Of a stretch of 46,706 nucleotides of DNA, positions 1 to 18,925 are shown one piece after another (the stretch's first letter is position 1; the number at the start of each line of letters is the position of its first letter). The notes below the pieces were generated by a model. It ran no database searches and was not told where the DNA came from. It saw only the letters and a list, made by a program, of their open reading frames with translations. Position numbers and translations under genes: made by a program. Source of the stretch: Rhodoferax sp. (GTDB lineage: Bacteria; Pseudomonadota; Gammaproteobacteria; Burkholderiales; Burkholderiaceae_C); the NCBI GenBank assembly GCA_011391545.1, contig JAABQI010000262.1:1-46706 (forward strand), in the 5' to 3' direction.

Positions 1-1187
1 AGGCTGGCCAAACCCGACACCAACACCGCCAGCACCAGCACTCCGAGCACTTCGGTGGCGGCCAGGGTGGGGCGCAGCGTGATCTGCTCCCGACCAAAGC
101 TGAAGATGATCGGCCAGACGTTGAGTGCCGCCACCACGGCGTAGCTCAGGGCGATACCCGCCAGTGCACCAGCCAGCCCGAGCAGCAGGCCCTCGCTCAA
201 AAAGATGGCCATCAGCTTGCGCGGCTGGGTGCCAATGGCCGCCAGCGTGCCAATCTCGCGAATGCGTTCATAAACCGCCATCAGCATCACGTTCATCACA
301 CTCACCAGCACAATGGCCACCAGCATGATGCGGATGAAAAAGGTCATCAAGTCGATCATTTTGACGATGTTGGCAAACGGTGACAGTTCTGCCCAGGTGT
401 GCAATTCGGTGGCGGGCTTGTCTTCCTTGTTGCGGATGGTGTCAAGGGCCGTGTTCAGGCGCTGCTGTGTGGTCGGCAGGGCACTGATGTTTTTCAGCCG
501 CACGGCGACCTCCATCACTTCTTCCTTGTCCATGCGCAGCAGCTCGCGGGCATCCTTGATGTCAATGTAACCGTCGCGCCCGCCGGGGCCGGTGATGCCC
601 TCCAGAATGCCGCCCACGACAAAAGTCTTTCCGTTGACCGAGCCCGAGGCGTTGGTGGCCACCAGCACCACCGAGTCACCCAGCTTGACCTTCATGCCGC
701 GCGCCAGCAGTGCCGGCACCAGCACCTTGCCGGGCTCCACCAGGGGCCCGGTCTTGTTGCCCTCGCTGATGCGCTGGCGCAGCGCCGGCACGGCGGCGTC
801 TTCGGCGGCCGCGTCGACACCGTTGAGGCGGATGCTGCTGTTCTCGGTGAAGTTGCTGAACATGGCACCGAGCTTGACACGCTTGGAATAAGCCAGCACG
901 GCCGGGTCAGCCTTGAGGGCGTCCTCAATCAGCCCAACCGCGCGGGGCTGCAGACTCATGGTCAGCGGCAGGTTGTCCATGGACGCGGTGTAGCCCTTGC
1001 GGTGGACCTGCAAGTGGCCCAGCATGCTGTCGGTGATCGAGCCCACCATGGTTTGCTTGAAGGATCCGGCGGCGGCCACGAACAACAGCAGCGCCACCAC
1101 ACCCAGCGTAATGAGCAAGGCCGTCAGCAGGGTACGGCGCTGGTAGCGCAACAGGTTGCGCATGGCGAGTTTCAGGGTAGAGCTCAT
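1..1187 (-). CDS. ABC transporter permease, FtsX/MacB/LolC type (3' end cut by window)
   Basis: Inner-membrane permease of an ABC exporter of the MacB/LolCE class. Reading the minus strand from the ATG at 1187 gives an uninterrupted frame to base 1, so the gene runs off the left edge and about 395 residues are visible. It begins [18 protein letters not shown], followed by a hydrophobic helix (about residues 20-42) and a periplasmic MacB_PCD-like domain. Two membrane segments follow; the first is rich in V, M and L, and the linker YERIREIGTLAAIG is typical of FtsX-domain proteins. The ATG overlaps the stop of the upstream ATPase gene (ATGA), which indicates translational coupling. The substrate is unknown; lipoprotein, lipid or peptide export are all possible. 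The family call is firm and the subclass is inferred. Confidence 0.85.
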   Translation of the reverse strand, partial: MSSTLKLAMRNLLRYQRRTLLTALLITLGVVALLLFVAAAGSFKQTMVGSITDSMLGHLQVHRKGYTASMDNLPLTMSLQPRAVGLIEDALKADPAVLAYSKRVKLGAMFSNFTENSSIRLNGVDAAAEDAAVPALRQRISEGNKTGPLVEPGKVLVPALLARGMKVKLGDSVVLVATNASGSVNGKTFVVGGILEGITGPGGRDGYIDIKDARELLRMDKEEVMEVAVRLKNISALPTTQQRLNTALDTIRNKEDKPATELHTWAELSPFANIVKMIDLMTFFIRIMLVAIVLVSVMNVMLMAVYERIREIGTLAAIGTQPRKLMAIFLSEGLLLGLAGALAGIALSYAVVAALNVWPIIFSFGREQITLRPTLAATEVLGVLVLAVLVSGLAS

Positions 1188-1873
1188 GGCGCAACTCCTT
1201 GGGTGAGCAGGCGACCGTCTTCAAGCGTGAAGATTTGTTCGGCCTCCTGCATGATCTTGGGGTCGTGGGTGGAAAAAATGAAACTGGTGCCAAAGTCGTC
1301 GCGCATGGCCTTCATCAGGTTGAGCACCTTGTAGGCGGTGTCATGGTCGAGGTTGGCGGTGGGCTCGTCGGCCAGCACCAGTTTGGGTTGGCCAACCAAG
1401 GCGCGTGCCACTGCCACGCGTTGCTTTTGCCCGCCCGAGAGCTGGTCCGGGCGCTTGTGCGCCTGATCTGTCATGCCCACAGCGGCGATCATCTTGTTGA
1501 CCTGCTCGCGGCGCTTGGCCTCGCTCCAGCCGCGCACCATCAGCAATGGGTATTCGATGTTTTCATAGGCGCTGAGCACCGGCACCAAGTTGAAGTCCTG
1601 AAACACAAAACCAAGGTTCTCGCCCCGAAAGGTGGCGGCGGCGCTGCGCGACAGCGTGCTGATGTCGGTGCCATGCACCAGCAGCGTGCCGCTGCTGGGA
1701 TGGTCCAAGCAGCCGATCAGATTGAGCAGTGTGGACTTGCCACTGCCCGAGGGGCCGACAAAGGCGGCAAAAGCGCCCTCCCCGATCTCGAAGCTGAGGC
1801 CCCTGAGGGCAGGCACCTCCTGATCGCCGACAGAATAGTTTTTTGTGACATTTTTCGCTTGTATCAAGGCCAT
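1184..1873 (-). CDS. ABC transporter ATP-binding protein, LolD/MacB type
   Basis: Cytoplasmic ATPase partner of the FtsX-like permease that follows it. The 229-residue protein has Walker A (GPSGSGKST), a Q-loop (FVFQDFNL), the ABC signature (LSGGQKQR), Walker B ([12 protein letters not shown]) and a switch histidine (FSTHD), so all catalytic parts are present. The start at 1873 (MALIQAKNV) is preceded by GGAG at a good distance. An in-frame start seven codons further upstream has weaker support. The stop overlaps the permease ATG. The LolD/MacB/FtsE subclass is judged from length and signature context. The transported substrate cannot be read from the sequence. Confidence 0.88.
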
Positions 1874-2019
1874 GTTTTTCTCCGGCTCAACCACCCGTCA
1901 AGGAACGATTGCAGGGTCAACCACTCGACCCTGAAATTTTCCTCATCGGGGCACGGATCGAGTTCTGCCCCGAGCACAATTTAACCCCTGACGCGTCAAC
2001 GCCATGTTGATGAAATCGA

Positions 2020-2405
2020 CTATTTTGTAAGGCTGGCGTGAAGAACAATGAACCAGCGGGCTACCGGGTCTCGGCGCACGCGGGCGTGGGCCACCACAAA
2101 CTCCGCAATGGATGGCACATCGGACAAGTCCTGCTGGGTCAAGCCCGGTGTCACGGCGACCTGAGCCGGTGAACCCGGCGTGTCGCTGGCAATGGCCTCA
2201 ATGCCGGGCCACTGTGGCCAGAGTGTGTCTTTGCCTTAAGGGGTTCGCCACACTTCCAGCTTGGAAAAATTGCCGTTCTTGAAGCCGTCAATCAGCACCA
2301 GATCGCTTGCTGCAGTTGCAGGCACCAAGCGTTCCAGCAGTGTGGCCTAGCCCATGCCGCGATCTCCGGCATGGGCAAATATCCTCACAGCGCCCTGCTG
2401 ACGGA
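2020..2405 (-). pseudogene. Decayed mobB (molybdopterin-guanine dinucleotide biosynthesis protein B)
   Basis: No open frame covers this stretch, but the minus strand reads through two stops as the C-terminal half of a MobB protein. The pieces are DLVLIDGFKNGNFSKLEVWR, then after a TAA (2236-2238) IEAIASDTPG, and finally a tail like LSDVPSIAEFVVAHA. A TAG at 2347-2349 interrupts it further upstream. The intact MobB at 40837-41370 has the matching blocks DWVLVEGFKDSDLLKIEVWR and FITAIATDSPD. The P-loop half is missing: the remnant begins at the stop of the multiheme cytochrome gene. It is probably a second, module-linked mobB lost by truncation and nonsense mutations, now redundant with the intact copy. 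Confidence 0.75.
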
Positions 2406-4415
2406 TCAGAATTGTGAGAAGAACCCGATACCCACCAGCGTCAGCAAGATCAGGCCGCAGGCGATCAGGACAAATCCCAAGACCCGTGAGGCAGCCATCT
2501 TGCCGGGTGACGGTGGATCCACCAGATACTTCTCGAGCTCTCCGCTTGCCACCAGGCGCTCGTACTCCTTGGCATGCTCATGCTTGAAGTCTTCCAGCGA
2601 GAACGTGCCAGTGAACATCACCACATCCAGCGGGAACTTGTCGGGCCGGAAATGGTTGTTGAAGAAGTGCACGGTGAACAGGAACACCACCGCCAGGAAC
2701 GCCTCTTCACCGTGGAAGATGGCCGCCACGTTGAACACCCAACCCGGCAGGAAGGAGCCGAAGAAGTTGGAGAACCACATGATCAAACCGCTCACACCAA
2801 TGATCGTCACCCCCCAGAACGGTGCCCAGTAGTCAAACTTCTCCCAGTAGGTCCAGCGGTCAAACTTGGGACGCGGACCCATGCCGAAGAACCACTTGAA
2901 CATGGCGATCATGTCCTTGCCGTCCTGCAGGTTGGGCACCAGCGAATCCGGACCGAAGAACTTGAAGGTGCTCCAGTTCTTGGCAATGCGCCAGGTGATG
3001 TAGAACAGGTGCCAGAAGAAGACACCGGCAAAGATCACCGCACTCACCCTGTGGATCAGGCCGGCCGTGTGCGGGCCACCGAGCATTGTCATGAGCGGCA
3101 CAGCCCACGGCGATGCCGGATAGAACAACGGAATGCCGGTCAAGGTCAGGATCATCAGGCTCAAGGCAAATGTGATGTGGGCCAGGCGCCAGATCGGACT
3201 GAAGCGACGCACGTGTTTGCCTTGCAGATTGACGGGCAGCGCGTCCACCTTGATGTGCGGTTGCGTCTTGCGCAGTTGGCGCTCCTTGTATTCACGGAAG
3301 AACCACAGCAGCGTGTGCAACCAGAAGAAACCAAAGGTCCCCACCAGCAGCTGAATCATGATCTGCCAGGCCACCCAGATTTGCGGGTATTTGTTGAAGT
3401 CGCCGCCATGACCATGCGGCTGGAACGAGCTGAAGCCAGCCGGTGCCAGAGCCAGGTCTTCCTTGCCGCTGTGGCAGGTCTGGCAGGTCTTGAGGCGGTT
3501 GTCGATATGCACCATGGATTTGGGGTCGTCGGTCTTCAACACCTTGTGGCTGCCATGGCAGTCGTAACACTTGGCCGTGTAGGCATAGCCCAGGGTGCTG
3601 ATCTTGCCATGGTAGGTGGCCATGTAGGTTTGCAGATTCTCTTCATGGCAGGTGCCACACTGCTGGGTCACGGCCAGTTTGAACGGGTCTCCAGAGGAGT
3701 TGGTGATGCTGTGCGAACCGTGGCAATCCGAGCAGACGGCAGCCTTGGGGTTGTTCTTTTCGAGCACTTCCTTGCCGTGAACCGAGCCGGCGTAGTCGTC
3801 GAGTTGGTCTTCATGACAGGTGCCGCAATTGTTGGAGATCCCCAGGCGCCACTGGTCGTACTGCGGCGTGTCTTTGGCTGGCACATTGAAGCTGTGCGTG
3901 TCGTGGCAGTTGTCACACGAGGCATTGGGTATGGTTGGGTCGTCCGCATTCGGCCGCGCATGGAACGATGCTTTGTAGGCCTCGATGTTCTTGGCGACCA
4001 GTTCAAGCCTGGGCTTGTCTTTGGCGCTGCCCGATTTTTGGGCTTCGTCCCAAAGATTTTGGTGGCAGCCTGCGCAATCGACCTTCGCGAGCTTCAGCGC
4101 CGGGTCTTTGGCATGGGCGTTGGCATTCTCTGCGTTGTCCTTGATGTCCGCGTGGCAGGCCACGCAGGTCATTTTGGCGTGCACGCTTTGGCCAAATTTG
4201 TCCGGCATGACCGCAAGCAATTCACGCGCCTCACCGTCGCTTCCTGGCACTTCAAGCTTGCCCTTCTTGCCATCGTGGCAACTCAGGCAGGAGGCATTGT
4301 CCAGCTGAGCGGGTGCAGCTTCAGCCGCCGGGCTGGCCGCAAGCGCCGGCAAGCTCAGGCAGGCGCCCAGCAGCCAGGCTAGCCCGCCCAAAAGAAGTGA
4401 GGATTTGAGTCGCAT
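2406..4415 (-). CDS. Nine-heme cytochrome c / membrane cytochrome b fusion, CbcL-like quinone oxidoreductase
   Basis: The 669-residue protein has a Sec signal peptide (cleaved near residue 27, ALA-AS) and a periplasmic region with nine CXXCH motifs starting at residues 43, 84, 114, 167, 197, 228, 253, 283 and 311. From about residue 346 there are six hydrophobic helices with histidines placed as in the HydC/FdnI (cytochrome b561) family, for example in LIHRVSAVIFAG and in VHFFNNHF. Nine c hemes plus an FdnI-like domain is the architecture of Geobacter CbcL, an inner-membrane quinol oxidoreductase used in metal respiration. Here it follows a molybdoenzyme operon with no NrfD-type anchor, so it is the best candidate for the quinone-linked module. 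A terminator lies between it and the cytochrome c gene upstream. No strong ribosome site is visible before the ATG, but the signal peptide fixes the start. Function is inferred from architecture and context. Confidence 0.85.
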   Translation of the reverse strand: MRLKSSLLLGGLAWLLGACLSLPALAASPAAEAAPAQLDNASCLSCHDGKKGKLEVPGSDGEARELLAVMPDKFGQSVHAKMTCVACHADIKDNAENANAHAKDPALKLAKVDCAGCHQNLWDEAQKSGSAKDKPRLELVAKNIEAYKASFHARPNADDPTIPNASCDNCHDTHSFNVPAKDTPQYDQWRLGISNNCGTCHEDQLDDYAGSVHGKEVLEKNNPKAAVCSDCHGSHSITNSSGDPFKLAVTQQCGTCHEENLQTYMATYHGKISTLGYAYTAKCYDCHGSHKVLKTDDPKSMVHIDNRLKTCQTCHSGKEDLALAPAGFSSFQPHGHGGDFNKYPQIWVAWQIMIQLLVGTFGFFWLHTLLWFFREYKERQLRKTQPHIKVDALPVNLQGKHVRRFSPIWRLAHITFALSLMILTLTGIPLFYPASPWAVPLMTMLGGPHTAGLIHRVSAVIFAGVFFWHLFYITWRIAKNWSTFKFFGPDSLVPNLQDGKDMIAMFKWFFGMGPRPKFDRWTYWEKFDYWAPFWGVTIIGVSGLIMWFSNFFGSFLPGWVFNVAAIFHGEEAFLAVVFLFTVHFFNNHFRPDKFPLDVVMFTGTFSLEDFKHEHAKEYERLVASGELEKYLVDPPSPGKMAASRVLGFVLIACGLILLTLVGIGFFSQF

Positions 4416-4433
4416 GATTCAATACTGATGAAC

Positions 4434-4470
4434 AAAAAAAATGGCCACGGTCTGTAAGGACTGTGGCCAC
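4434..4470 (-). terminator. Rho-independent terminator after the small cytochrome c gene
   Basis: On the minus strand a hairpin with a 7-bp arm (GTGGCCA / TGGCCAC), one mismatch and three further inner pairs is followed by eight T residues. It lies 24 bases after the cytochrome c stop and 18 bases before the start of the nine-heme cytochrome gene, so it would reduce read-through into that gene. Confidence 0.75.
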
Positions 4471-4494
4471 GAGTTTGGCGAAATAAACGCTGAA

Positions 4495-4839
4495 TTACTG
4501 AGCCAGGATCCAGTCAGCCAGGTTTTTCAGCTCTTTGGCGTCTTTGGTGTCAACGACTTTGTGCTTCTCTTCAGTGCCATCGGCCAGTTTGACCATGGGG
4601 CCAGTCGTAAAGTTGGTCACAAGCTTTTCCTCACCGTCAGCTTTGCCCTTGTATTTGGCGGCAATTTTCTTCAGCGACGGGCCTTTTTTGGTCTTGTCAA
4701 CGGCATGGCACTTGGTGCAGTCGTTGGCTTTCATCAGGGCTTTTGCTGCTTCTTCATCTGGCGCAGCGTGCGCGGGTGTCAGGCAGGCGAGAGCCAGCAC
4801 AGCGGATGCACTGGCGAGGGCGAGAGAAGATTTGAACAT
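4495..4839 (-). CDS. Small periplasmic class I cytochrome c (c551/c552 type)
   Basis: The 114-residue precursor has a clear signal peptide (cleavage near AHA-AP, residues 24-26) and one heme site, CTKCH. A later Met in the segment TTGPMVKLADG may be the distal heme ligand, as in small class I cytochromes c. The gene is preceded by AGGAG. It stands between the chaperone gene and the nine-heme cytochrome gene and ends in a strong terminator. The likely role is a soluble electron carrier between the molybdoenzyme and the membrane cytochrome or another partner. The heme site and export are seen directly; the partner is inferred. Confidence 0.88.
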   Translation of the reverse strand: MFKSSLALASASAVLALACLTPAHAAPDEEAAKALMKANDCTKCHAVDKTKKGPSLKKIAAKYKGKADGEEKLVTNFTTGPMVKLADGTEEKHKVVDTKDAKELKNLADWILAQ

Positions 4840-4895
4840 TGTTTAACTCCTGAAGTGAAATGGGTAGCACGCGAAAAAATATTTCGAAGAAACAC

Positions 4896-5573
4896 TTAAT
4901 TGAGAATCATTCTAGCGCCTGGGGAGTTCGAGTGCGATTGATATAGATCAAACGAACCCGATTCCATCTGAAGCAAGCGTTCCGTGAATTCGGCCAATTC
5001 GCGATAGAAGGCAGTTTCTGCTCCCTCTTTGATCGCAGCGGCAAACGGGCTGATCCAGGCACCCAGATGTTCGCCAAGAAAACGCCTGCGCAGTTGGTCG
5101 ATGGCGGCCAGTTCATCCGCTTTGCCAGCAGCCTGAGCCCGGTTGCTGTGGAACGTGAGCAGGTACAAAAACTCCAGTTCCACGGCCACATGGTCAGGCA
5201 ATTCCCGGAACTCCGGGTCGACCTCAAAACCACCTTCACTGTACAACTCCAGAACGGCCGGGGGTGGATTGTCATCGGTCGCAACGGGCGGATTCAACCA
5301 TGACGCGCCGTATGGATTGGCGAGAGCTTCAATCGGGCCAAGAAAAAGCCGCGTGTAGTCCACCAGCAAGGTCTGCAAGTCCTGCGCGGCAAACGCCTCC
5401 CCCAGTCTGCGTGCCGGCTCGACAAGATCCGGGTGAACCTTGCTGGCAGCCAGTCTGATGGAGTCAAACAGCTTTTCCTCTGCAAATTCTGGTGCCGGTT
5501 CGTAAAAGCAGGCGGACAAAAACCGAAACAAGTCCTCTTTTGCACTGGCTTTGTCAGGCTCGAATTCGGACAT
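4896..5573 (-). CDS. TorD/DmsD-family redox enzyme maturation chaperone
   Basis: Cytoplasmic chaperone expected to bind the Tat signal and help insert the molybdenum cofactor into the catalytic subunit encoded two genes upstream. The 225-residue protein is all-helical in character and carries the family motif as ELPDHVAVELEFL near residue 135, plus the early DYTRLFLGP segment. The ATG at 5573 (MSEFEPDK) has AAGGAG at the right distance, so I prefer it to an upstream in-frame start that overlaps the ferredoxin gene. It occupies the ArrD/ArxD position in known arsenate/arsenite operons. The family is clear; its specific client is inferred from gene order. Confidence 0.88.
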   Translation of the reverse strand: MSEFEPDKASAKEDLFRFLSACFYEPAPEFAEEKLFDSIRLAASKVHPDLVEPARRLGEAFAAQDLQTLLVDYTRLFLGPIEALANPYGASWLNPPVATDDNPPPAVLELYSEGGFEVDPEFRELPDHVAVELEFLYLLTFHSNRAQAAGKADELAAIDQLRRRFLGEHLGAWISPFAAAIKEGAETAFYRELAEFTERLLQMESGSFDLYQSHSNSPGARMILN

Positions 5574-5641
5574 TGGTTCTCCTTGGACGCAAAAAGAGGA
5601 ATCTGCACAACGGGCGCCCATGGAAACTGAAGGCGTCCCCA

Positions 5642-6439
5642 TCAGACGCGAGGGCTGTATTTTCCAATGTAATGTACATTGGGTTTGGTGCCTTTTTCTT
5701 CCTGCAGACGGAATGATTTTTCCAGCCTCAGGATTTGCGCAATTTCTGTGTTCGGGTCATCCTGGTCTCCAAAAATGCGCGCCTTGGCCGGGCACACTTC
5801 GACACAGGCGGGCTGCAGGCCATTGAGCACGCGGTGGTAGCAGAAGGTGCACTTCTCGACCACATCGTCCTTGCGCACCGGTTGCAGGTCGCCGCCTTTC
5901 CAGGCGTTCAACATGGGTGGTGTTGCACCCGCCAGGGCCGAGACCTCGGCACCGGAAGTCGTGCACCCCGGGATGGCCGAGGTTTTGTCGGCCCAACGCG
6001 GCTGGGTGTTTTCGTCCATGGCGTTGAAGCTGATGACACTGTAACTGCCACCTTCCAGGCTTGAAGCGTCGAGATTTTCGTGGCTGTAAGGGCAGTTGGT
6101 CTGGCATTCCCGGCACCCGACACACAAATCGGGGTTGTGCATGGTGATGCCCTCGGGCGTCTTGTACAGGGCCCTGTAAGGTTTGCCAGGACCTGCTTTT
6201 TCCGGATTGCCCGGGCACTTCGTGACGCAAGGTGCATCGGTACAGTGATTGCACAGCACCGGCATGACAAAGTGCTTCGTGTTGGGAAACGTTCCTTCGG
6301 TGTGCATCAGGAAATCGGCCCAGTTGAAGCTTTGTCCATCAGCGCGGTCGCGGGTGTTGTTTTCTGCTTTGCAGGCAAAGGCGCAAGCACCGCAGCCGTT
6401 GCATTTTGCGAGGTCGATGACCATTCCAAGTCTTGACAT
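5642..6439 (-). CDS. Four-cluster [4Fe-4S] ferredoxin subunit of molybdoenzyme (ArrB/ArxB/PsrB type)
   Basis: Electron-transfer subunit that pairs with the catalytic subunit encoded just upstream (28-base gap). The 265-residue protein has four Cys groups: CNGCGACAFACK near the N terminus, CNHCTDAPCVTKCP, CVGCRECQTNCP, and the split group CTFCYHRV...CVEVCP. These match the four [4Fe-4S] clusters of the DmsB/PsrB family. There is no signal peptide, so it is probably carried across the membrane by the Tat signal of its partner, as is usual for the family. AGGAG precedes the ATG. The assignment is firm for the family; the Arr/Arx class follows from the partner. Confidence 0.9.
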   Translation of the reverse strand: MSRLGMVIDLAKCNGCGACAFACKAENNTRDRADGQSFNWADFLMHTEGTFPNTKHFVMPVLCNHCTDAPCVTKCPGNPEKAGPGKPYRALYKTPEGITMHNPDLCVGCRECQTNCPYSHENLDASSLEGGSYSVISFNAMDENTQPRWADKTSAIPGCTTSGAEVSALAGATPPMLNAWKGGDLQPVRKDDVVEKCTFCYHRVLNGLQPACVEVCPAKARIFGDQDDPNTEIAQILRLEKSFRLQEEKGTKPNVHYIGKYSPRV

Positions 6440-6467
6440 GATTTGCTCCTAAATTGTTGCTCGGCGA

Positions 6468-9023
6468 TCAGGCCTTTTGAATCCGCACACCGGTAAAGCC
6501 GCCATTGCGGGCGGTGGCACCGCTGAGCCGGTCGTAGTCATCGACCAGGATCTCGTTGTTGTTGCCACCCTTGGGTGTCGCCTTGGCAAAGTCTTTGGCA
6601 GCCACCCGGCCATAAGCCCAGTGACCCTGGCCGTAACACTTGGCCACCGTGCCGGGGCGCACCCCCTCCCACAGCTTGAGCTGGCAACTGATCGTTCCGG
6701 TGATGGAGGTGATGGTCACGTTGTCGCCGCTCTTCAGGCCCAGTTTGGCACCGTCAACCGGGTTCATCTTGACCACATCACCCCAGGACACATCGCCCGG
6801 GTCGACCTTCTTGAACTCTTGATACCAGGGCAGATTTTGCGAACGACCCTCGCGATTCAGACGCGATTTGTAGTCAATAAAGGTAAGCGGGTAGTCGGCC
6901 AGACTGCCATGGCGTTTCACAGTTTCATAGTGCGGCACAAAGGCGACTTCGCCGCGCGCCACATAACCGCTGACCGTCAGGATGTCGTCGACGGTGGTCT
7001 CATACTTCTTGGCGTGCTCCAGCAGGCCCGCCTTGAGCGACTCGCTGTAAAACTCGAATTTCTTGGTAGGGGTGTTGAACTTGCCGCCCCAACCCTTTTT
7101 AAGCGTGTACTTCGGTCCGCTGAACATACCCTTCTTCTTGAAGTCGGCCCAGCCGTTGATCGGTGCATCACCCTTGAGGGGCTCCTTGGCCATCCACAAG
7201 GGCGCACTGGTCATCTTGGCCGCGATCTCGCTGAACTCCAGCGCAGTGGTCGGCGCCTTGCCGGTTTCGGGGTCCTTGAACTCGTTGGCGTAATAGTCGA
7301 ACAGATTGGCAAAACCCCTGGCCTTGAGCTTTTCAGCCAGCAGCCACATGACTTCGGTTTCTTCCTGCTTGACATCCCAAAGGCGTTTGACGGCACCTTG
7401 CTGAATGGACGCGTAGGCGTAACCGTTGCCCATGTTGGTGACGACGGACCAACCCTCTGCCGAGTTGAAGGTCGAGGGCAGCACGATGTCGGCAAACATC
7501 GTCATCTCCGAGGCATTGGGCACCATGTGCACAAAGAATGGCACGGCGGCCAGGGCTTTTTCCCAGCGCTGGGTTCCGGTGGCAGAGAAGGCAAAGTTGG
7601 ACCATGACGAGATGAACACCTTCACCGCACCCGGATCCTTGAGCATGCCATTGGCCACGTTGTTGGTCACCACACCGCTGCCCGGCTTGGCGCCCATCAT
7701 GGCGGGCATGTCCTTGGCACCACGGCCATCAAGCTTCTTTCCCTTGCTGGCTGCCTTGGCCTGTTCGTCCACATATTTGTCCAACTTGGGGAACTTGGCA
7801 ATTGGCACACTGCCACTCTGCCAGACACCGCCTTCGGCGTCGATGGAACCGAGCAAACCGTTGAGCGCATGCACGGCCATGGCACTGTAAGTGCCGCGCG
7901 GGTGCATGGCTGCGCCAGGGCCCATCCACACCGTCACTTTGGGTGCGGCCTTGCCCATGGCCCGGGCGACGCGCACAATTTGCGCCGCAGGAATCAGGGA
8001 TTCCTTTTCGCCCCAAGCGGGTGTGCGGTCCTTGAGTTCCAGATTCCACCATTTCACCAGGCCATGCGTTTCCTTCTCGGAAAAGGTCGCTTCATCCACA
8101 GCTTTGCCGGCCACAAACAGGTTCTTGCCGTCCGTGAAATCACCCACGAACTCACGGTTCCACAGGCCTTCGGTCAGCAGCACATGCGCAATGGAACCCG
8201 CCAGCGCACCGTCGGTACCGGGGTTGATCGGCAGCCACTCATGTGCCTTCGCAGCGATATTGGACAAGCGCGGATCAACCGCAATGACGGTGCCGCGTTT
8301 GACGATGTCCGGGAAACGGTTCATGGTGTTGGGCACCATGCGGTTGGAGGCCAGCGGGTCGCAGCCCCAGGCCACCAGGCAGTTGGTATTGGCCAGGTCA
8401 TAGTCGCGGTAGCCAAAGAAGCCCTGGGTCAGGCCGGGGCCCATTTTTTCGGCCTCGGCGCAGATGGCGCTGTGCGAAAAATAGTTGCCGGTGCCAAAGA
8501 TTTTGGGCAGGGTGCCGTAGAGCAGTTCTGTCGAAGTCGGCGAGTAACGGCCGCGCATGTACATGAGCTTGTGCGTTTCGCCCGCTGTGCGCAAAGCGAT
8601 CATCTTGTCGGCCACCGTGTTGAGGGCTTCGTCCCAACTGATGGGTACGAACTTCGGGTCGATGCCACGGCCCTTGAGCGGGTTGGTGCGTTTCATGGGC
8701 ACCTTGATTCGGTCCGGGTCATACATCTGCTGCGGGATCAGGTGACCACGCGGGCAGCAATAGCCGTGGTTTGTCTTGGACAGCGGGTTGCCGCGCACCC
8801 GGGTGGCGCGGCCACCCTGCACAAAGATCTGGATGGCACACCACTGGGTGCAGCCCTGGCAAGTGCTGGCAACCCAGTCACCCATGGCGGGGCTGCTGGG
8901 TTTGGCCTTGCGGGGAATCAGCGCGCTGTGCAGGGGTGCGGCCGACATGCCTGCACAACCGATCATCAGCGACCCGGCAGTCAGGCCGGAGGCCATAAGG
9001 AAAATTCGTCTTGTCAGCTTCAT
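6468..9023 (-). CDS. Tat-exported molybdopterin oxidoreductase, arsenate reductase / arsenite oxidase (Arr/Arx) like catalytic subunit
   Basis: Catalytic subunit of the DMSO reductase superfamily, 851 residues, close to usual ArrA/ArxA length. It starts MKLTRRIFLMASG, a Tat signal with the twin Arg at residues 5-6; GGAG precedes this ATG, so an upstream in-frame start is rejected. A [4Fe-4S] site is seen as Cys 55, 58, 62 and 90. The block SHSAICAEAEK (183-193) contains Cys188, the expected molybdenum ligand in the Arr/Psr group. It also holds His184, Ser185 and Lys193, and with RGRY (157-160) and Tyr205 these match residues I recall lining the ArrA arsenate pocket. Later blocks such as KWWNLELKDRTPAW also fit Arr/Arx. 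Other oxyanions of selenium, antimony or sulfur cannot be excluded, and the direction of reaction is not readable. A sigma-54 promoter lies just upstream. Confidence 0.85.
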   Translation of the reverse strand: MKLTRRIFLMASGLTAGSLMIGCAGMSAAPLHSALIPRKAKPSSPAMGDWVASTCQGCTQWCAIQIFVQGGRATRVRGNPLSKTNHGYCCPRGHLIPQQMYDPDRIKVPMKRTNPLKGRGIDPKFVPISWDEALNTVADKMIALRTAGETHKLMYMRGRYSPTSTELLYGTLPKIFGTGNYFSHSAICAEAEKMGPGLTQGFFGYRDYDLANTNCLVAWGCDPLASNRMVPNTMNRFPDIVKRGTVIAVDPRLSNIAAKAHEWLPINPGTDGALAGSIAHVLLTEGLWNREFVGDFTDGKNLFVAGKAVDEATFSEKETHGLVKWWNLELKDRTPAWGEKESLIPAAQIVRVARAMGKAAPKVTVWMGPGAAMHPRGTYSAMAVHALNGLLGSIDAEGGVWQSGSVPIAKFPKLDKYVDEQAKAASKGKKLDGRGAKDMPAMMGAKPGSGVVTNNVANGMLKDPGAVKVFISSWSNFAFSATGTQRWEKALAAVPFFVHMVPNASEMTMFADIVLPSTFNSAEGWSVVTNMGNGYAYASIQQGAVKRLWDVKQEETEVMWLLAEKLKARGFANLFDYYANEFKDPETGKAPTTALEFSEIAAKMTSAPLWMAKEPLKGDAPINGWADFKKKGMFSGPKYTLKKGWGGKFNTPTKKFEFYSESLKAGLLEHAKKYETTVDDILTVSGYVARGEVAFVPHYETVKRHGSLADYPLTFIDYKSRLNREGRSQNLPWYQEFKKVDPGDVSWGDVVKMNPVDGAKLGLKSGDNVTITSITGTISCQLKLWEGVRPGTVAKCYGQGHWAYGRVAAKDFAKATPKGGNNNEILVDDYDRLSGATARNGGFTGVRIQKA

Positions 9024-9062
9024 AACATGCTCCTGATTTGATGTTCGACTGATGAGATCTCC

Positions 9063-9077
9063 GCAAACTTCATGCCA
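9063..9077 (-). promoter_or_regulatory. Sigma-54 promoter of the molybdoenzyme operon
   Basis: On the minus strand the sequence TGGCATGAAGTTTGC matches the sigma-54 consensus TGGCAC-N5-TTGC with a single difference and exact GG-N10-GC spacing. Transcription would start near 9051, giving a leader of about 28 bases that contains the GGAG at 9030-9033. The divergent operon encodes a sigma-54 activator with an intact GAFTGA loop, which supports the call. Confidence 0.8.
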
Positions 9078-9088
9078 TGGATCAAGTT

Positions 9089-9115
9089 GCGCGCCAAGTT
9101 CTGTGCCTGGCGCGC
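9089..9115. promoter_or_regulatory. Inverted repeat GCGCGCCA-N11-TGGCGCGC
   Basis: A perfect 8-bp inverted repeat with an 11-base spacer lies directly upstream of the sigma-54 promoter. It could be a binding site for a further regulator or a DNA structure between the promoter and the upstream activator site. Nothing else ties it to a known protein. Confidence 0.35.
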
Positions 9116-9225
9116 TGGATGCGAGCCAAGAAGGCAATGGTTTTGAGAGTGGCGCGCCTTGCATGGAACGCCGGCAATGTCTTGTGTTCTGACATTTGCA
9201 TGACATTCAACAATCCGACACAGTC

Positions 9226-9241
9226 GTTACCCATTGGTAAC
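9226..9241. promoter_or_regulatory. Operator copy 1, GTTACC-N4-GGTAAC (likely upstream activator site)
   Basis: A perfect inverted repeat GTTACC-CATT-GGTAAC centred about 156 bases upstream of the -24 element of the sigma-54 promoter, a usual enhancer distance. Two more copies lie at 9385 and 9426, so this is most simply the recognition site of the divergently encoded sigma-54 activator. Confidence 0.75.
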
Positions 9242-9377
9242 CCTTCATGGACCCAAACTGGAAACCGTCCAAGAAAAGCCGAAGCGGCGAGGGGTCTGTC
9301 GGTGATCCCCATCGCTAGAATTCTGTTTGTTTGGAGTGGTCTTTCTTGAGTGGCGCAGCCCGGGCGCCAGAAAGACA

Positions 9378-9407
9378 TTGATGTGTTACCGGCAGGTAAC
9401 CTGATAC
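9378..9407 (+). promoter_or_regulatory. Candidate sigma-70 promoter of the sensor-kinase-regulator operon
   Basis: TTGATG (9378-9383) and TGATAC (9402-9407) are separated by 18 bases, and operator copy 2 fills the spacer. The -10 match is only moderate, so this is a candidate; the position of the operator inside the spacer is the main support. Confidence 0.4.
9385..9400. promoter_or_regulatory. Operator copy 2, GTTACC-N4-GGTAAC
   Basis: A perfect second copy of the inverted repeat (GTTACC-GGCA-GGTAAC). The spacer bases differ from copy 1 while the arms are identical, as expected for a protein site. It lies within the likely promoter of the regulator operon. Confidence 0.75.
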
Positions 9408-9425
9408 ACCCATCATCTGACTGAG

Positions 9426-9441
9426 GTCACCGATCGGTAAC
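9426..9441. promoter_or_regulatory. Operator copy 3, GTCACC-N4-GGTAAC, next to the ribosome site
   Basis: A third copy with one changed base in the left arm. It ends ten bases before the ATG at 9452 and directly abuts the Shine-Dalgarno stretch AGGA. A protein bound here would block transcription of the regulator operon, which suggests autoregulation. Confidence 0.65.
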
Positions 9442-9451
9442 TAGGAAAAAA

Positions 9452-10306
9452 ATGTCAAAACTCATCAGGCGCCAGTTCATTGCTGCTTGCCTTGGCGCAA
9501 CCTGCTTGCGCGCTCTGGGCAGTACCGAGGCGCGCCCCATCCGGTTCGCCATGACACCCGCTTTCCTGCACGACCAGCACGCCTTGCTGGCTGAATGGCG
9601 GATGTATCTGGAAGCACGCCTGAATCGTCCCGTGGAGTTTATTCAGCGTGACCGCTACCGCGAGACGATGGACCTGCTGCAGCAGCAAAAGGTCGAGTTC
9701 GCATGGATTTGCGATTACCCCTACGTGATGTTGAAAAATGAGGTTCGTCTGCTGTCGGTGGCTGTCAACAACGACAAGCCGACCTACCGTTCCTACCTCA
9801 TCGTGCCGACACGCGACACCCAGACCCGCAGTGTGCTTGACCTCAAGGGCCGCGTCTTTGCCTATGCTGACCCCTATTCAAACACCGGCTATCTGGTGCC
9901 GCGCTTCGAGATCAAAAGCAACGGCGCCGACCCAGCCACTTTTTTCAAACGAACCTTTTTCACCTGGTCGCACCGCAAGGTGATCGACGCTGTGGCTGCC
10001 GGGCTGGTGCAGGGCGCCTCGGTGGACAGTTATGTCTGGGATTCCCTGAGCCAGGTGCGCCCTGACATCACCGCCAAAACGCGCATTGCCTGGAAATCCG
10101 AAGAATACGGTTTCCCGCCCATGGTGGCCCACCGCAATGTGCCGGAGGCTGACTTCAAGCGCATGCAGGACGTCCTGCTGGGCATGGCCGACGAACCTCA
10201 GGGTCGCGCCATGCTGGAACGGCTCAACCTGAATGGGTTCATCACCGGATCGCCCAAGCTCTATGACCGTGTGGCAGAAATGATGCGGCTATTTGGCGAG
10301 CCTTGA
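9452..10306 (+). CDS. Periplasmic PhnD-type binding protein, AioX/ArxX-like sensor subunit
   Basis: The 284-residue protein starts MSKLIRRQFIAACLG, an export signal with a twin Arg. It then has the fold pattern of PhnD/phosphate-phosphonate binding proteins (PIRFAMTPAF, DLKGRVFAYADP). The mature part contains a single Cys, Cys87, in EFAWICDYPYV. In AioX, the arsenite-binding partner of AioS, a Cys in the pocket is needed for arsenite sensing, so Cys87 is a candidate metalloid ligand. The gene is followed by its kinase with a TGATG overlap, and the trio matches the order X-S-R of arsenite-responsive systems. No transporter genes accompany it, so a sensing role is likelier than uptake. The ligand is inferred. 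Confidence 0.82.
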   Translation: MSKLIRRQFIAACLGATCLRALGSTEARPIRFAMTPAFLHDQHALLAEWRMYLEARLNRPVEFIQRDRYRETMDLLQQQKVEFAWICDYPYVMLKNEVRLLSVAVNNDKPTYRSYLIVPTRDTQTRSVLDLKGRVFAYADPYSNTGYLVPRFEIKSNGADPATFFKRTFFTWSHRKVIDAVAAGLVQGASVDSYVWDSLSQVRPDITAKTRIAWKSEEYGFPPMVAHRNVPEADFKRMQDVLLGMADEPQGRAMLERLNLNGFITGSPKLYDRVAEMMRLFGEP

Positions 10307-11754
10307 TGCGCCTTTTTGATCTCAGCCTGCAGTTCAAGATGCCGCTCTGGGGCGGTGGATTGATCCTGGCCACGGCCTTGGCCTTGTCCACCTCGTTTGT
10401 TATCCAGACCTGGGATAACCTGCACGAGGAGATTCACAAGAATGCACAGGACATCGGGCGCACCATGGCGCGATCGCTGTTTCCGGTGATGCTGCACGAC
10501 GAAGTATGGCAAGCCTTTGAGATCGTTTCCCTGCCCTTTGCGGCCGTTCCCAGCGCAGCGCTTGCCGAGAGCCTGATGGTGCTCGACAGCGCCGCCCGTG
10601 TCTATGTGTCGTCGCGCCCCGAAGACCATCCCGTGCTGAGCCCGCTGGCTTCGCTGGGCGGGGAACTGGCTGAACTGGACCGGGCTTTCCCTCGCGAACC
10701 AGATGCCAAAGTGTTTGTGCTGGACAAAGGGCCCGCGCAACACATTTATGTGACCTTGCCGATTGTCAATGACGGGGTGCGGCTGGGCACCCTGGTGGTG
10801 GCCTACAACAAGTCCCTGCTGTGGCAGCGCTTCACCCACCTGCTTGGCAACGCCTTGTGGGTCACCTTGCTGGTGCTGGGCGTGTTGCTGCCGATTACCG
10901 CTTACTGGGGACGGCGCATGATGCAGCCGATGCGACTGATCACCGAGCGCATCAGCCGCATCGGCAGCAATGAGTTCGAAGCGCTCGATGCCTCGCTCTA
11001 CCCGTACAAGGATGAAGTGGGCCAGCTGTTTGCAGCTTATGCCGACATGCGTGCCAAACTGATGGAAAAAGCAGCGTTGGAACAGGAAATGGTTAAGAGC
11101 GAGCGCATGGCAGCCGTCGGGCGGCTCACGGCCAGCATTGCCCACGAAATCAACAACCCGCTGGGCGGCATGCTCAATGCCATCAGCACCCTCAAACGTT
11201 TTGGCAGCCCGGACCCGGTCATGCAGAAAACCGTGTCATTGCTGGAGCGGGGTCTGTCGCAGGTGCGCGACACGGTAGCCGCCCTGCTGGTGGAAGCCAA
11301 GGTGAAAAGCCGCTCCTTGAGTCCGACGGACCTGGACGATGTGCGCATTCTGGTGAACCATGCCGCCAAAAAGCTTGCCACCCAGTTCACCTGGGAGATT
11401 GACCTGCCCGCTGCGGTGGCGCTGCCATCCACCCTGGTGCGTCAGGTGCTCATCAATTTGCTGCTCAACGCCATCACGGCCGCGGGCCAGGGTGGCCAGG
11501 TGGCGCTGCGGGTGGATGCCGACGGACACGGCGTGACCATGGTGATCGAGAACAACGGTAAATCACTGTCGCCCGAGCAACTCGGTCGCCTGTTTGAACC
11601 CTTTACCCAGTTCTCTGACAATGGCAACGGGCTGGGACTCTGGATTTGCTACCAGATCGTGACGCAACTGGGCGGTACCATCCAAGCTGAATCCGATCCC
11701 GCGCTGACCCGCTTCAGCGTGAACTTTCCCCTGAATTCATCCAAAACACCTTGA
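10306..11754 (+). CDS. Sensor histidine kinase, AioS/ArxS-like
   Basis: Inner-membrane kinase of 482 residues. One membrane helix at about 16-37 and a second at about 180-200 enclose a periplasmic region of some 140 residues. A HAMP-like linker follows. The H-box is SIAHEINNPLGG with phospho-accepting His280, and the ATPase domain shows the N-box (VLINLLLNAI) and the G-box (GNGLGLWICYQI). The HEINNPL form is typical of NtrB-like kinases that pair with sigma-54 regulators. The ATG at 10306 overlaps the stop of the binding-protein gene, and the stop overlaps the regulator ATG in the same way. The periplasmic region probably contacts the X protein. Confidence 0.9.
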   Translation: MRLFDLSLQFKMPLWGGGLILATALALSTSFVIQTWDNLHEEIHKNAQDIGRTMARSLFPVMLHDEVWQAFEIVSLPFAAVPSAALAESLMVLDSAARVYVSSRPEDHPVLSPLASLGGELAELDRAFPREPDAKVFVLDKGPAQHIYVTLPIVNDGVRLGTLVVAYNKSLLWQRFTHLLGNALWVTLLVLGVLLPITAYWGRRMMQPMRLITERISRIGSNEFEALDASLYPYKDEVGQLFAAYADMRAKLMEKAALEQEMVKSERMAAVGRLTASIAHEINNPLGGMLNAISTLKRFGSPDPVMQKTVSLLERGLSQVRDTVAALLVEAKVKSRSLSPTDLDDVRILVNHAAKKLATQFTWEIDLPAAVALPSTLVRQVLINLLLNAITAAGQGGQVALRVDADGHGVTMVIENNGKSLSPEQLGRLFEPFTQFSDNGNGLGLWICYQIVTQLGGTIQAESDPALTRFSVNFPLNSSKTP

Positions 11755-13097
11755 TGCCGCAATTCTTGCCCAAAATTTGCCTGATCGAAGACGACGAGAT
11801 CATGGGCGAATCACTCGCCGATCGCCTCAATCTTGAGGGCTTCAGCTTTGACTGGCACCGCAACGGCAGCGAGGCGCGCGACGCCTTGCGCTCCCAGGCT
11901 TACGCCTTGGTGATCAGCGACATCCGCCTGCCAGACATCACTGGCGATGCCCTGTACGAGGAGTTGCGCGCGGAGCACCTGAGCTTGCCACCGTTCATCT
12001 TCATTACCGGGCATGGTGACATCGACACCGCCGTGCGCTTGCTCAAGGCGGGCGCTCACGACTACATCACCAAGCCATTCGACCTGGATGAGTTGATCGA
12101 CAAAATCAATGCCGTGGTTGCCCAAAGCAGCAGCCAGGGACCCGCCGCGCTGGGCCAGTCACCTGCCATGCGGCATATCGAGGCCATGCTGCATCGTTTG
12201 GCGGCCAGTGATACCTCGGTGCTTATCACCGGTGAATCCGGCGTTGGCAAAGAGCGTGTGGCCCAGGCCCTGCATCAGTTGACCGGTGTGACCAAGCCCT
12301 TTATTGCAGTCAACTGCGGTGCGTTGACCGAAAGCCTGCTCGAGGCCGAGCTTTTTGGTTACGAAAAAGGGGCCTTTACCGGGGCACTCCGAACGAAAAA
12401 AGGGGTCTTTGAGCAGGCCAGCGGTGGCACGCTTTTTCTCGATGAAATCGGTGACATGCCGCTGTCCATGCAGGTAAAGTTGCTGCGCGCGCTGCAAGAG
12501 CGCTGCATTGTGCGGGTTGGTGGTGAGACGCCCATTCCGGTGGACATCCGGCTGATGTGCGCCACCCATCAGGTTCTGCAGGAGCGTGTGCAATCTGGTG
12601 ATTTTCGCGAAGACCTGTACTACCGCATCAACGTGGTCGAGCTGCGCATACCGCCACTTCGTGAGCGCCCGGACGACGTCCTGCCGCTGGCACGTCAATT
12701 TTTGGCCACCATTGCAGTGACCAACAAAAAGCTCCCACTCATCCTGACACCCGCCGCCGAGCACGCGCTGAAAAACTACCGCTGGCCAGGCAACGTCCGT
12801 GAACTTAAAAATGCGCTGGAGCGCGCCAGTCTGATGAGCGACGGCCGGACCATCTCACACGACAAGCTGTTCGACCGCCCCGCCCCCCAACTGACCGAGC
12901 AACAGGTTGAGGCAGGCAGCCTGCGTGACTACCTGAGTGAGTGTGAACGCGATTTCATCGTGCATGCGCTTGACAACTGTCAATGGCAAATTGCCTGCTG
13001 CGCGGATAGCCTGGGCATCAGCCGGAAAAATTTGTGGGAGAAAATGCGCAAACTGGGGATCGACAAAGACGCTGATGGCAGCAAACCAGCACCTTGA
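11754..13097 (+). CDS. Sigma-54-dependent response regulator, AioR/ArxR-like (NtrC family)
   Basis: The 447-residue protein has a receiver domain (acidic pair EDD at 12-14, phospho-acceptor Asp56 in VISDIRLP, Lys in ITKPF) and an AAA+ domain with Walker A GESGVGKE. The sigma-54 contact loop is intact (EKGAFTGA), and Walker B is GTLFLDEIGDM. A Fis-type helix-turn-helix closes the protein (ADSLGISRKNLWEKM). It should activate the sigma-54 promoter at 9063-9077 through the GTTACC-N4-GGTAAC sites. It is translationally coupled to the kinase by TGATG. The regulatory logic is inferred; the domains are plain in the sequence. Confidence 0.92.
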   Translation: MPQFLPKICLIEDDEIMGESLADRLNLEGFSFDWHRNGSEARDALRSQAYALVISDIRLPDITGDALYEELRAEHLSLPPFIFITGHGDIDTAVRLLKAGAHDYITKPFDLDELIDKINAVVAQSSSQGPAALGQSPAMRHIEAMLHRLAASDTSVLITGESGVGKERVAQALHQLTGVTKPFIAVNCGALTESLLEAELFGYEKGAFTGALRTKKGVFEQASGGTLFLDEIGDMPLSMQVKLLRALQERCIVRVGGETPIPVDIRLMCATHQVLQERVQSGDFREDLYYRINVVELRIPPLRERPDDVLPLARQFLATIAVTNKKLPLILTPAAEHALKNYRWPGNVRELKNALERASLMSDGRTISHDKLFDRPAPQLTEQQVEAGSLRDYLSECERDFIVHALDNCQWQIACCADSLGISRKNLWEKMRKLGIDKDADGSKPAP

Positions 13098-13109
13098 CCC
13101 AGGAACTCC

Positions 13110-14051
13110 ATGAGTCACGACCACCACGACCACGCCCCAGCCAACTTCAACCGCGCATTTGCCATTGGCATCGTCCTCAACCTGGCGTTTGTCGGCATCG
13201 AGGCGTTTTATGGCTGGCGTGTCAATTCTCTGGCCCTGCTGGCCGATGCCGGGCACAACCTCAGCGACGTGGCCGGCCTGGTGCTGGCCTGGGGCGGCGC
13301 GCTGGCCATCCGGCTGGTCCCTGACGCGCGCCACACCTACGGCTGGAAGCGCGCCACGATTCTGGCCGCCTTTGCCAACGCCTTGCTGTTGCTGGTGGCC
13401 ATGGGCGGCCTGGCCTGGGAAGCCATCGGGCGGCTGATGTCCAACGAGGTGTCGCTGCAGGAGCAGGGCCTGACCATCATGGTGGTGGCCGGTATCGGCA
13501 TCTTGGTCAACACCGCCACCGCCCTGCTGTTCATGCGCGGACGCGAACACGATCTCAATATTCGGGGCGCCTTTCTGCACATGGCCGCCGACGCGCTGGT
13601 CTCGGCCGGGGTCGTGGTGGCGGGTGCCTTGACACTGTGGATGGGCTGGACCTGGCTCGACCCGGTGGTGAGCCTGGGCATTGCCGCGGTGATTCTGTGG
13701 GGCACCTGGGATTTGTTCAAGCAGTCCCTGCACATGCTGTTTGATGGTGTGCCCGCCCATATCGACCCCCAGGCAGTGCACGATTGTCTGGCCGCGCTAC
13801 CCGGCGTGACCCAGGTGCACGACCTGCACATCTGGGCGATGGGCACCTCGCACGTCGCGCTCACGGCGCATCTGGTCATGCCGCAGGGCCAGGCCGACGA
13901 TGCCTTTCTGAATCAGGCCACCGAGCTGATGCACGACCGCTTCGAAATCACCCATGTCACCCTGCAGGTGGTCAAGGTGCCATTTACACCCAGTTGTGTT
14001 CCCGTGCCCGACAAGGACAAGCCGACTCAGGCAGAATCCTGCCCTGTATGA
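13110..14051 (+). CDS. Cation diffusion facilitator (CzcD/ZitB-like metal exporter)
   Basis: Inner-membrane proton-coupled exporter of Zn, Cd, Co or a similar divalent metal, 313 residues. A His-rich N terminus (MSHDHHDHA) precedes six membrane helices. The metal site is seen as HxxxD in helix 2 (ADAGHNLSD, His49 and Asp53) and again in helix 5 (FLHMAADAL). A C-terminal cytoplasmic domain follows (ITHVTLQVVKV). The gene begins 13 bases after the response regulator stop, and its own stop overlaps the next ATG (ATGA). It therefore may be co-transcribed with the regulators upstream and with the ligase and amidotransferase downstream. Confidence 0.9.
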   Translation: MSHDHHDHAPANFNRAFAIGIVLNLAFVGIEAFYGWRVNSLALLADAGHNLSDVAGLVLAWGGALAIRLVPDARHTYGWKRATILAAFANALLLLVAMGGLAWEAIGRLMSNEVSLQEQGLTIMVVAGIGILVNTATALLFMRGREHDLNIRGAFLHMAADALVSAGVVVAGALTLWMGWTWLDPVVSLGIAAVILWGTWDLFKQSLHMLFDGVPAHIDPQAVHDCLAALPGVTQVHDLHIWAMGTSHVALTAHLVMPQGQADDAFLNQATELMHDRFEITHVTLQVVKVPFTPSCVPVPDKDKPTQAESCPV

Positions 14052-17169: not shown

Positions 17170-17197
17170 ACACGGTGCCTGTGGCGGGGCACGCCGT

Positions 17198-18619: not shown

Positions 18620-18925
18620 GATTGAACTCTGGTGGGAGTTGCGAGCTGAAGAGGCTGGCCCATCAAGGGCAAATCCAACTCAGGCAATAACCATGGGCAA
18701 TGTCGCCATTGACAGCCAGCAAGCGGCTGAGTTCTTCGAACATGATGGTTGCTGATTATCCAACGGAGCCATTGTGGGTATCGGCAAAGTATAGCCACCG
18801 CAGCTTCAGCCCATCCCGGCCCGCAAGCTGGCAGCCACCACTGCGGCGTGTCCCGTTGTTAAACTTGGCCCGGTGGTCAACACTACACTTGAGTGGACAC
18901 ACCACTATTCTTGCGGGGCTGGGCA
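18620..18925. other. Divergent intergenic region without a recognised gene
   Basis: About 300 bases between two divergent diguanylate cyclase genes. No convincing open frame, RNA gene or repeat is visible. It must hold two promoters, but I could not assign well-matched -35 and -10 elements. Confidence 0.5.

Follow-up and report, generated by a model that had tools for sequence, protein, structure and literature searches.

The DNA described here is a stretch of 46,706 nucleotides from a Rhodoferax sp. (assembly GCA_011391545.1, contig JAABQI010000262.1), and this whole stretch is referred to as the window. The source genome is a 79%-complete assembly in 318 contigs. At 2406-9023 the window carries five genes on the minus strand, arrA-arrB-torD, a gene for a mono-haem cytochrome c, and a gene for a 669-residue cytochrome with nine CXXCH motifs. 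Together they look like an operon for a respiratory arsenate reductase joined to cytochromes of the MtoD and MtoC type. A preliminary description, made from the letters alone, had reported a Tat-exported molybdoenzyme, a ferredoxin subunit, TorD, a cytochrome c, and a nine-CXXCH protein, and all five open reading frames (ORFs) were confirmed at that place. The genes are as follows.

6468..9023, minus strand: arrA-like catalytic subunit, with the Tat signal TRRIFLMASG, Fe4S4 and molybdopterin domains, RGRY, and a Cys ligand region as in ArrA
5642..6439, minus strand: arrB-like iron-sulfur subunit with ferredoxin-type clusters
4896..5642, minus strand: TorD-family chaperone (arrD; PF02613), whose start may be internal and whose C-terminal extension overlaps an FNR-like box
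4495..4839, minus strand: mono-haem cytochrome c with one CXXCH, closest solved relative MtoD (PDB 4xxl)
2406..4415, minus strand: cytochrome c with nine CXXCH motifs and, fused to it, a membrane module of six helices, CbcL/MtrH/MtoC family

There are 28 bases between arrA and arrB, the arrB and chaperone ORFs overlap, and 56 bases separate the chaperone from the cytochrome c and 79 the cytochrome c from the big cytochrome. The identical five-gene order was found in loci L050 and L145 (81-95% protein identity in each), which excludes chance as an explanation of the operon.

The catalytic ORF covers 912 codons (6468-9206), and a Tat-type start at Met 62, with AGGAG ahead of it, gives 6468-9023. 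Pfam molybdopterin domains were found in this protein. The ArrA in PDB 6cz7 matches it with an E value of 9e-272, and the active-site stretch RGRYS, CAEA-KMGP agrees between the two. A Ferrimonas protein named ArrA (L146, P0241) shares 48% identity with it, and two ArxA-type references share 32-33%. ArxA is marked by XGRGWG (PMC6549141) and ArrA by (R/K)GRY near the active site. The window enzyme has RGRY, and GRY is present in 101 of 106 rows of an enzyme tree (L066 counted after retrimming), the remaining five being three ArxA-type references (GRGWG) and two outgroup sequences. These references are called ArxA-type by motif, and in L148 and L149 also by nearby genes for a sensor, kinase, and regulator (XSR) and an NrfD-type gene, rather than by name. 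Support of 100 separates them from the 101 Arr-side rows, in a tree of Arr-side, ArxA-type, and outgroup sequences that was built by a quick method and drew a long-branch warning. In the same tree, the ArxA-type references, gammaproteobacterial ArrA, a Desulfuromonas-protein group, and the window clade are separated with support of 97-100.

The clade of the window enzyme includes loci titled Rhodoferax, Ramlibacter, Rubrivivax, Leptothrix, Propionivibrio, Accumulibacter, and Sulfuritalea. Two loci titled Sulfuritalea (L113 and L121) carry the cytochrome pair. Sulfuritalea hydrogenivorans sk43H respires arsenate and possesses arrAB (PMC6397845). In metagenomes from stable isotope probing, arrAB genes of such genera, accompanied by a TorD gene and encoding RGRY, were read as functional Arr (PMC11283718). 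The enzyme had been described as Arr/Arx-like. The Arr part agrees with the motif, the tree, and the 48% identity to ArrA, and the Arx part does not survive the 32-33% identity. An Arx reading was rejected on the motif, identity, and tree position, and the locus is without arxB2 and an NrfD-type arxC. Judged by its sequence, the window enzyme looks like a respiratory arsenate reductase on the ArrA side, with arsenate as its predicted substrate.

The two cytochromes resemble proteins of metal respiration. The mono-haem cytochrome c has MtoD as its best match among 19 PDB sequences (4xxl, E 2e-29). This entry is the MtoD of Sideroxydans, the deposition being named in PMC4412085. Residues 43-311 of the big cytochrome hold its nine CXXCH motifs. 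The protein also has a hydrophobic stretch at its N-terminus and six more hydrophobic helices. The published plan of the CbcL/MtrH/MtoC family is 3-23 N-terminal CX2CH motifs, mostly six transmembrane helices, and 416-1034 residues (PMC6295460). With nine motifs, six helices, and 669 residues the protein agrees with this plan, as does the preliminary claim of a CbcL-family cytochrome in the operon. The narrower term, CbcL-type, shifts. The neighbours and the MtoD-like partner place the protein better in the betaproteobacterial MtoC/MtrH branch. An FdnI-like cytochrome b had also been proposed for its membrane part. The six helices are there, and the matches to PF01292 (cytochrome b561; 26.2 bits, threshold 30.1) and to formate dehydrogenase gamma (27.8 bits, cut-off 115.85) fall below the curated thresholds.

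Ten relatives of the big cytochrome (54-80% identity) adjoin MtrA- and MtrB-like genes. The proposed link between metalloid and metal respiration is supported. Among 38 MtoC-type cytochromes from chosen loci, nine were labelled as arr-linked, L089 wrongly. MtrA- and MtrB-like genes both lie within 8.5 kb of 10 of the 29 others, and one of the two lies beside 2 more. These labels are BLAST matches to two reference pairs (L066 and L136). The porins of both pairs were confirmed by Pfam, and only in L066 does the decahaem protein score above a curated family cut-off. A survey of 250 genomes of the order found a relative of the big cytochrome (E 1e-50) in 13 and, at a stricter E of 1e-150, the arr enzyme in the source genome only. 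On plasmids, the searches turned up a single Arx-type locus and no MtoC.

No NrfD gene is present in the operon. A PF03916 search of the assembly gave one NrfD gene, on another contig, with DsrP as its best NCBIfam match (57.6 bits, cut-off 350), so that the description of the operon as lacking NrfD stands. Beside this gene are an ORF with three CXXCH and one for an iron-sulfur protein that has a Tat-like start, and on these neighbours and the weak DsrP match the gene was rejected as a partner elsewhere in the genome. When four anchor proteins were searched by tblastn against 80 named and 14 family arr loci, only one locus entered as L080 and L292, and L068 (PhsC-type query), were hit, each with the NrfD-type hit beside a second, Arx- or Phs-like enzyme. 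At 6483-12579 of L068 an arr-like locus is followed by X, S, and R genes. Its other strand carries a gene resembling B, a membrane gene of the PhsC type, and an incomplete A-like gene (31-33% identity), which are perhaps a second, Phs-like enzyme.

The joining of arr to the cytochromes can be followed in a tree of the cytochromes. The arr-linked proteins stand in two distant places, and a forced single grouping was rejected (approximately unbiased test, p ~1e-95; L089 was left out, its MtoC-like gene being 7 kb off on the other strand). The arr-linked cytochromes of Rhodoferax alone are compatible with one clade (p 0.18). By these sequences there were at least two separate joins, one in Rhodoferax and another in a single Rhodocyclaceae-like genus. 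The Rhodoferax genomes G289 and G301 (loci L209 and L210) possess the same neighbourhood without the arr block. There the cytochrome c and MtoC genes (82-83% DNA identity) are met directly by the cation-efflux gene that follows the regulator gene R in the window. A further feature is shared by these sites.

4938..4951, minus strand: FNR-like box TTGAT-N4-ATCAA, a perfect palindrome, inside the end of torD and upstream of the cytochrome c gene

This box is similarly placed in L050, L145, and the arr-free L209 and L210, with at most one changed base in the arms, and in the last two it occupies the corresponding position before the cytochrome c gene. The TorD proteins of the window, L050, and L145 have a C-terminal extension whose coding sequence contains the box. 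Alignment of 21 other TorD genes reaches only residue 227-237 of 248, with no box inside the gene, and in L110 the box lies 104 bases past torD. The motif by itself is unsurprising (0.86 expected at up to one mismatch), and the evidence is its conserved place. Because an arr-free site exists and the box is kept in place, the comparison favours an insertion of arr and XSR before an existing, apparently anaerobically controlled cytochrome pair, although a later loss in G289 and G301 is possible. Repeated joining and the empty site support the idea of one quinone module that is swapped between arsenate reductase and outer-membrane conduits.

A different molybdoenzyme is found at a similar position in G256 and G277 (L262 and L263; L264 and L265 also carry this operon). 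It has 866 residues, is about 25% identical to that of the window, and is PhsA/ArrA-like, with PhsA as the best NCBIfam match (293 bits, cut-off 694). Upstream are the same kind of X and S genes and the palindrome described below, with R too in G277. Downstream are an MtoD-like cytochrome c and a protein of the MtoC type (60-61% identity). In G259 an enzyme of this type is accompanied by XSR and a cytochrome c and not by MtoC, and the contig of G280 ends before that point. That a second molybdoenzyme also stands before MtoD-like and MtoC-type genes supports the view of the module as a plug-in.

The region upstream of arrA contains putative regulatory genes and sites.

9452..10306, plus strand: X, periplasmic oxyanion sensor of the AioX/ArrX family, equivalent of Cys106 kept
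10303..11754, plus strand: S, sensor histidine kinase by family match
11751..13097, plus strand: R, sigma-54-dependent response regulator by family match
9226..9241, no strand: palindrome GTTACC-N4-GGTAAC, exact, candidate operator of the XSR activator
9385..9400, no strand: second copy of the palindrome, exact
9426..9441, no strand: third copy of the palindrome, one mismatch
9062..9077, minus strand: candidate sigma-54 promoter TGGCATGAAGTTTGCG, 38 bases before the arrA start, two mismatches to the consensus

This divergent XSR cassette probably regulates the arr operon. The X protein is nearest to AioX (E 7e-56) and then to ArrX (E 1.5e-35). Six of the seven binding residues (Tyr88, Cys106, Tyr131, Ser161, Ser163, His192, and Asp210) are identical, and Ser163 is Thr. 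Cys106 is present in all 20 X rows from 18 chosen arr loci and in 4/4 rows beside a second molybdoenzyme, and the position is Ser in 3/3 X rows beside MtrAB. These last belong to L136, L138, and L139, which are MtrA-MtrB clusters with MtoC and their own XSR, with Ser in place of the arsenite-binding Cys106. Binding residues alone do not set the ligand of such sensors (PMC5908839).

Three palindrome sites at up to two mismatches lie between arrA and X, against 0.43 expected in the window. Of the 35 exact palindromes in 60 genomes, 33 are within the 3-kb surroundings of X and/or an arr gene (exceptions G250 and G257; the X counted in G293 is distant, at 38% identity). The number of palindromes is unremarkable (35 against 24 for a reversed control); what stands out is their placement, which was counted for the palindrome only. 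Enough DNA upstream was available in 75 named arr loci, and an exact palindrome is present in 25 of them, 21/33 with X in the locus and 4/42 without it. The sigma-54 motif matches 29 times across the window, with 28.65 expected by chance, and the promoter is kept as a candidate for its place only.

The enzyme could also be read in reverse, with arsenite oxidized and electrons passed through the MtoD-like cytochrome to the MtoC protein or to a high-potential acceptor. X is closer to the arsenite-binding AioX than to ArrX and has kept an AioX-like loop, MtoD has a high potential (PMC4412085), and CbcL/MtrH/MtoC proteins are thought to be bidirectional (PMC6295460). The RGRY motif and the ArrA side of the tree speak against reversal, as does arsenate respiration by the Sulfuritalea strain with arrAB (PMC6397845), and there is no ArxC/NrfD and no second ArxB at the locus. 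Reversal is considered improbable.

With moderate confidence, the locus can be read as a respiratory arsenate reductase operon that took over a quinone module belonging to the Mtr/Mto pathway of betaproteobacterial metal respiration. Quinol would be oxidized in the membrane part of the MtoC-type protein, and the electrons would reach the periplasm by way of its nine c-haems. From there they could be handed on by the MtoD-like cytochrome c and the iron-sulfur subunit to the molybdenum centre of ArrA, which would reduce arsenate to arsenite. XSR would sense an arsenic oxyanion and activate the arr promoter through the GTTACC-N4-GGTAAC palindromes, and the cytochrome pair would keep its own oxygen-sensing, FNR-like promoter. 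The substrate, the direction, every electron-transfer step, the ligand of the sensor, and the binding of R and FNR are predictions in this scheme, set beside a gene order, protein families, motif, tree position, repeated joining, and conservation of operator and box that can be read from the DNA.

How often arr and the module go together was explored in several sets of genomes. The best 80 of 275 named arr loci were judged within 7.5 kb downstream on the same strand. An MtoC-type module follows in 7 of the 50 that could be judged, a split nine-haem protein and cytochrome b in 2, a cytochrome c only in 1, and none in 40. Of the unjudged loci, 3 ended after the cytochrome c and 27 ended too early. 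Six further rows, for the window and additional loci, are outside these counts. The MtoC arrangement is thus a minority one, with A-B-D-c-MtoC in 7/80 named loci (the MtoC gene is cut by the contig end in L112 and L113) and in G252.

Sixty Rhodoferax genomes include 15 with Arr (all at least 84% identical, some fragments), 30 with MtoC, and 33 with MtrB (35 with the weak matches in G257 and G287, which were left out). MtoC is present in 10/15 Arr genomes (Fisher p 0.23). MtrB is present in 24/30 MtoC genomes (p 0.0002) and 13/15 Arr genomes (p 0.006). The cytochrome had been proposed as a dedicated replacement for the anchor, and this is not what the genomes show. Its occurrence largely agrees with an outcome that the preliminary description had itself named as refuting, a cytochrome gene equally frequent without the molybdoenzyme. 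Among 297 genomes of a second family, the Arr enzyme was found in 14 at E 1e-200, eight of which overlap the named loci (L078, L080, L082, L096, L114, L117, L124, and L125). A-B-D-c-MtoC is present in all four arr genomes found of the Rhodocyclaceae-like genus g260 (two overlap, and G652 and G786 are new) and in 0/10 others, one of whose contigs ends right after the cytochrome c.

Several of these results weigh against the proposed takeover of the module. In Rhodoferax, MtoC follows MtrB and not Arr, and it is kept without arr in L209 and L210. Because 40 of the 50 judgeable arr loci lack the module downstream, Arr is probably functional without it. The MtoD of S. lithotrophicus has a high potential of +155 mV (PMC4412085) and does not serve the membrane cytochrome ImoA (PMC13390432), which makes a flow of electrons toward arsenate awkward. 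The big cytochrome is placed in CbcL/MtrH/MtoC by the published plan and its neighbours. Its predicted structure was poor (mean pLDDT 51), gave nothing in Foldseek at E<=0.001, and was not used. The best NCBIfam match of the catalytic subunit, ArrA, scores 1039.7 bits under a curated cut-off of 1600, and the iron-sulfur subunit scores 218 bits to ArrB under a cut-off of 450. The label "ArrA-like, divergent clade" is therefore used.

The distance of this clade from named ArrA also leaves room for another oxyanion such as antimonate, with arsenic only a side substrate or inducer. This is highly improbable, given the active-site stretch shared with 6cz7 and an arsenic-type sensor in which Cys106 is kept throughout the arr loci compared. 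A stronger alternative is that the two cytochromes form a separate unit, metal/extracellular or generally quinol-oxidizing, that only neighbours arr, and that ArrAB has another donor, for example a NapC/NirT-family cytochrome. One such gene, with four CXXCH, is present in the genome on contig C9. The pair's own FNR-like box, its presence without arr at the same site, its co-occurrence with MtrB, and its absence downstream of most judgeable arr loci would all fit. The close same-strand joining behind torD, repeated in two separate lineages and in every arr genome found of g260, does not, and no MtrB gene was found in the source genome, though this is only 79% complete. This alternative is possible but doubtful.

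The takeover of the module could also go further, with ArrAB plugged into an extracellular-electron-transfer network and electrons passing between arsenate and outside minerals through a shared MtoC/MtoD hub. This is rather unlikely. Its clearest case would be L066 (Rhodoferax sp. U2-2l, NZ_JAJCTH010000011.1, 8894-20878), an arr-mtr supercluster with genes on one strand and a divergent XSR. The order is arrABD, mobB, a nine-haem cytochrome, a cytochrome b, an MtoD-like cytochrome c, a decahaem MtrA-like protein, and an MtrB porin.

Other electron modules may exist near arr loci, since some of the 40 loci without the module have other cytochrome b genes nearby, in L125 upstream of A, in L081 and L104 further downstream. 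Near the arr genes of L064, L081, L104, and L147 there are octahaem or nine-haem cytochromes accompanied by a small cytochrome b. Those of the first three form one cluster, and that of L147 is similar-looking. A seven-CXXCH cytochrome with a small cytochrome b lies upstream of arrA in L125, L298, and L299 and is perhaps another electron module.

Two features follow the operon in the window.

1895..2405, minus strand: remnant of mobB (cofactor gene), parts missing, between the big cytochrome and the ABC gene
1184..1894, minus strand: ABC-exporter ATPase (LolD/MacB type), which follows the operon in the window and in L050

In L050 an open mobB stands at the place of the remnant. The ATPase is probably outside the operon. 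It is 83-87% identical to proteins encoded near arr loci L079, L081, L082, and L104 (titled Propionivibrio, Accumulibacter, and others). Further along the window, at 17201-18619, is a gene for a PAS-GGDEF protein that ends in a C-terminal hemerythrin domain.

The arr-MtoD-MtoC locus is a real and new combination of known parts, and it suggests that the respiration of arsenic and of metals draws on shared, interchangeable wiring. Arsenate enters groundwater along with the reduction of iron oxides. If one module serves either Arr or a metal conduit, the two processes would have their parts, regulators, and evolution in common in widespread freshwater bacteria. The MtoC/MtoD module is a candidate electron donor for part of a large arr clade, and the palindrome is a candidate operator for the arsenic-type sensor system of that clade. 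Among the titles and abstracts of the top matches in open-licence PMC, none brought arr genes together with MtoC, CbcL, or MtoD.

Known systems share some of these parts. In Shewanella sp. ANA-3, the tetrahaem CymA is reportedly the donor to ArrAB. That system is said to be alike in the ArrA family, the motif, Tat export, a periplasmic enzyme, and the lack of an NrfD anchor; in place of CymA, the window operon has a nine-haem c/b fusion and a mono-haem cytochrome c. The Arx arsenite oxidase (arxB2ABCD, arxXSR) likewise has divergent XSR regulators and a related catalytic subunit. It differs in XGRGWG, a second iron-sulfur subunit, the ArxC anchor (NrfD in the Cereibacter locus), and an identity of 32-33%. 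The arrABDE of Geobacter sp. OR-1 and the arr genes of Ramlibacter, Sulfuritalea, and Rubrivivax have a TorD-flanked arrA-arrB and RGRY, and the betaproteobacterial genera among them are also in the present tree; unlike the window operon, those clusters are described in PMC11283718 with no mention of MtoC or MtoD genes. AioXSR, ArxXSR, and ArrXSR share the sensor family, the kinase, an AtoC-type activator, and the binding residues except for the change of Ser163 to Thr, and the window palindrome is not named in the part of PMC5908839 consulted. The CbcL/MtrH/MtoC and MtoD proteins of mtr/mto clusters are alike in the N-terminal multihaem c, the six C-terminal helices, and the MtoD-like neighbour (PMC6295460, PMC8805035, PMC4412085). 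Unlike in those clusters, the window cytochromes are joined to a molybdoenzyme in an operon without MtrAB. The dmsEFABGH genes of Shewanella also combine a molybdoenzyme with an extracellular-electron-transfer module and are a precedent for such modularity (PMC11302344). They differ in the periplasmic cytochrome DmsE, the outer-membrane protein DmsF, and a reductase anchored on the outer membrane (PMC11302344), and they are closest not to the window but to the L066 cluster of Rhodoferax U2-2l.

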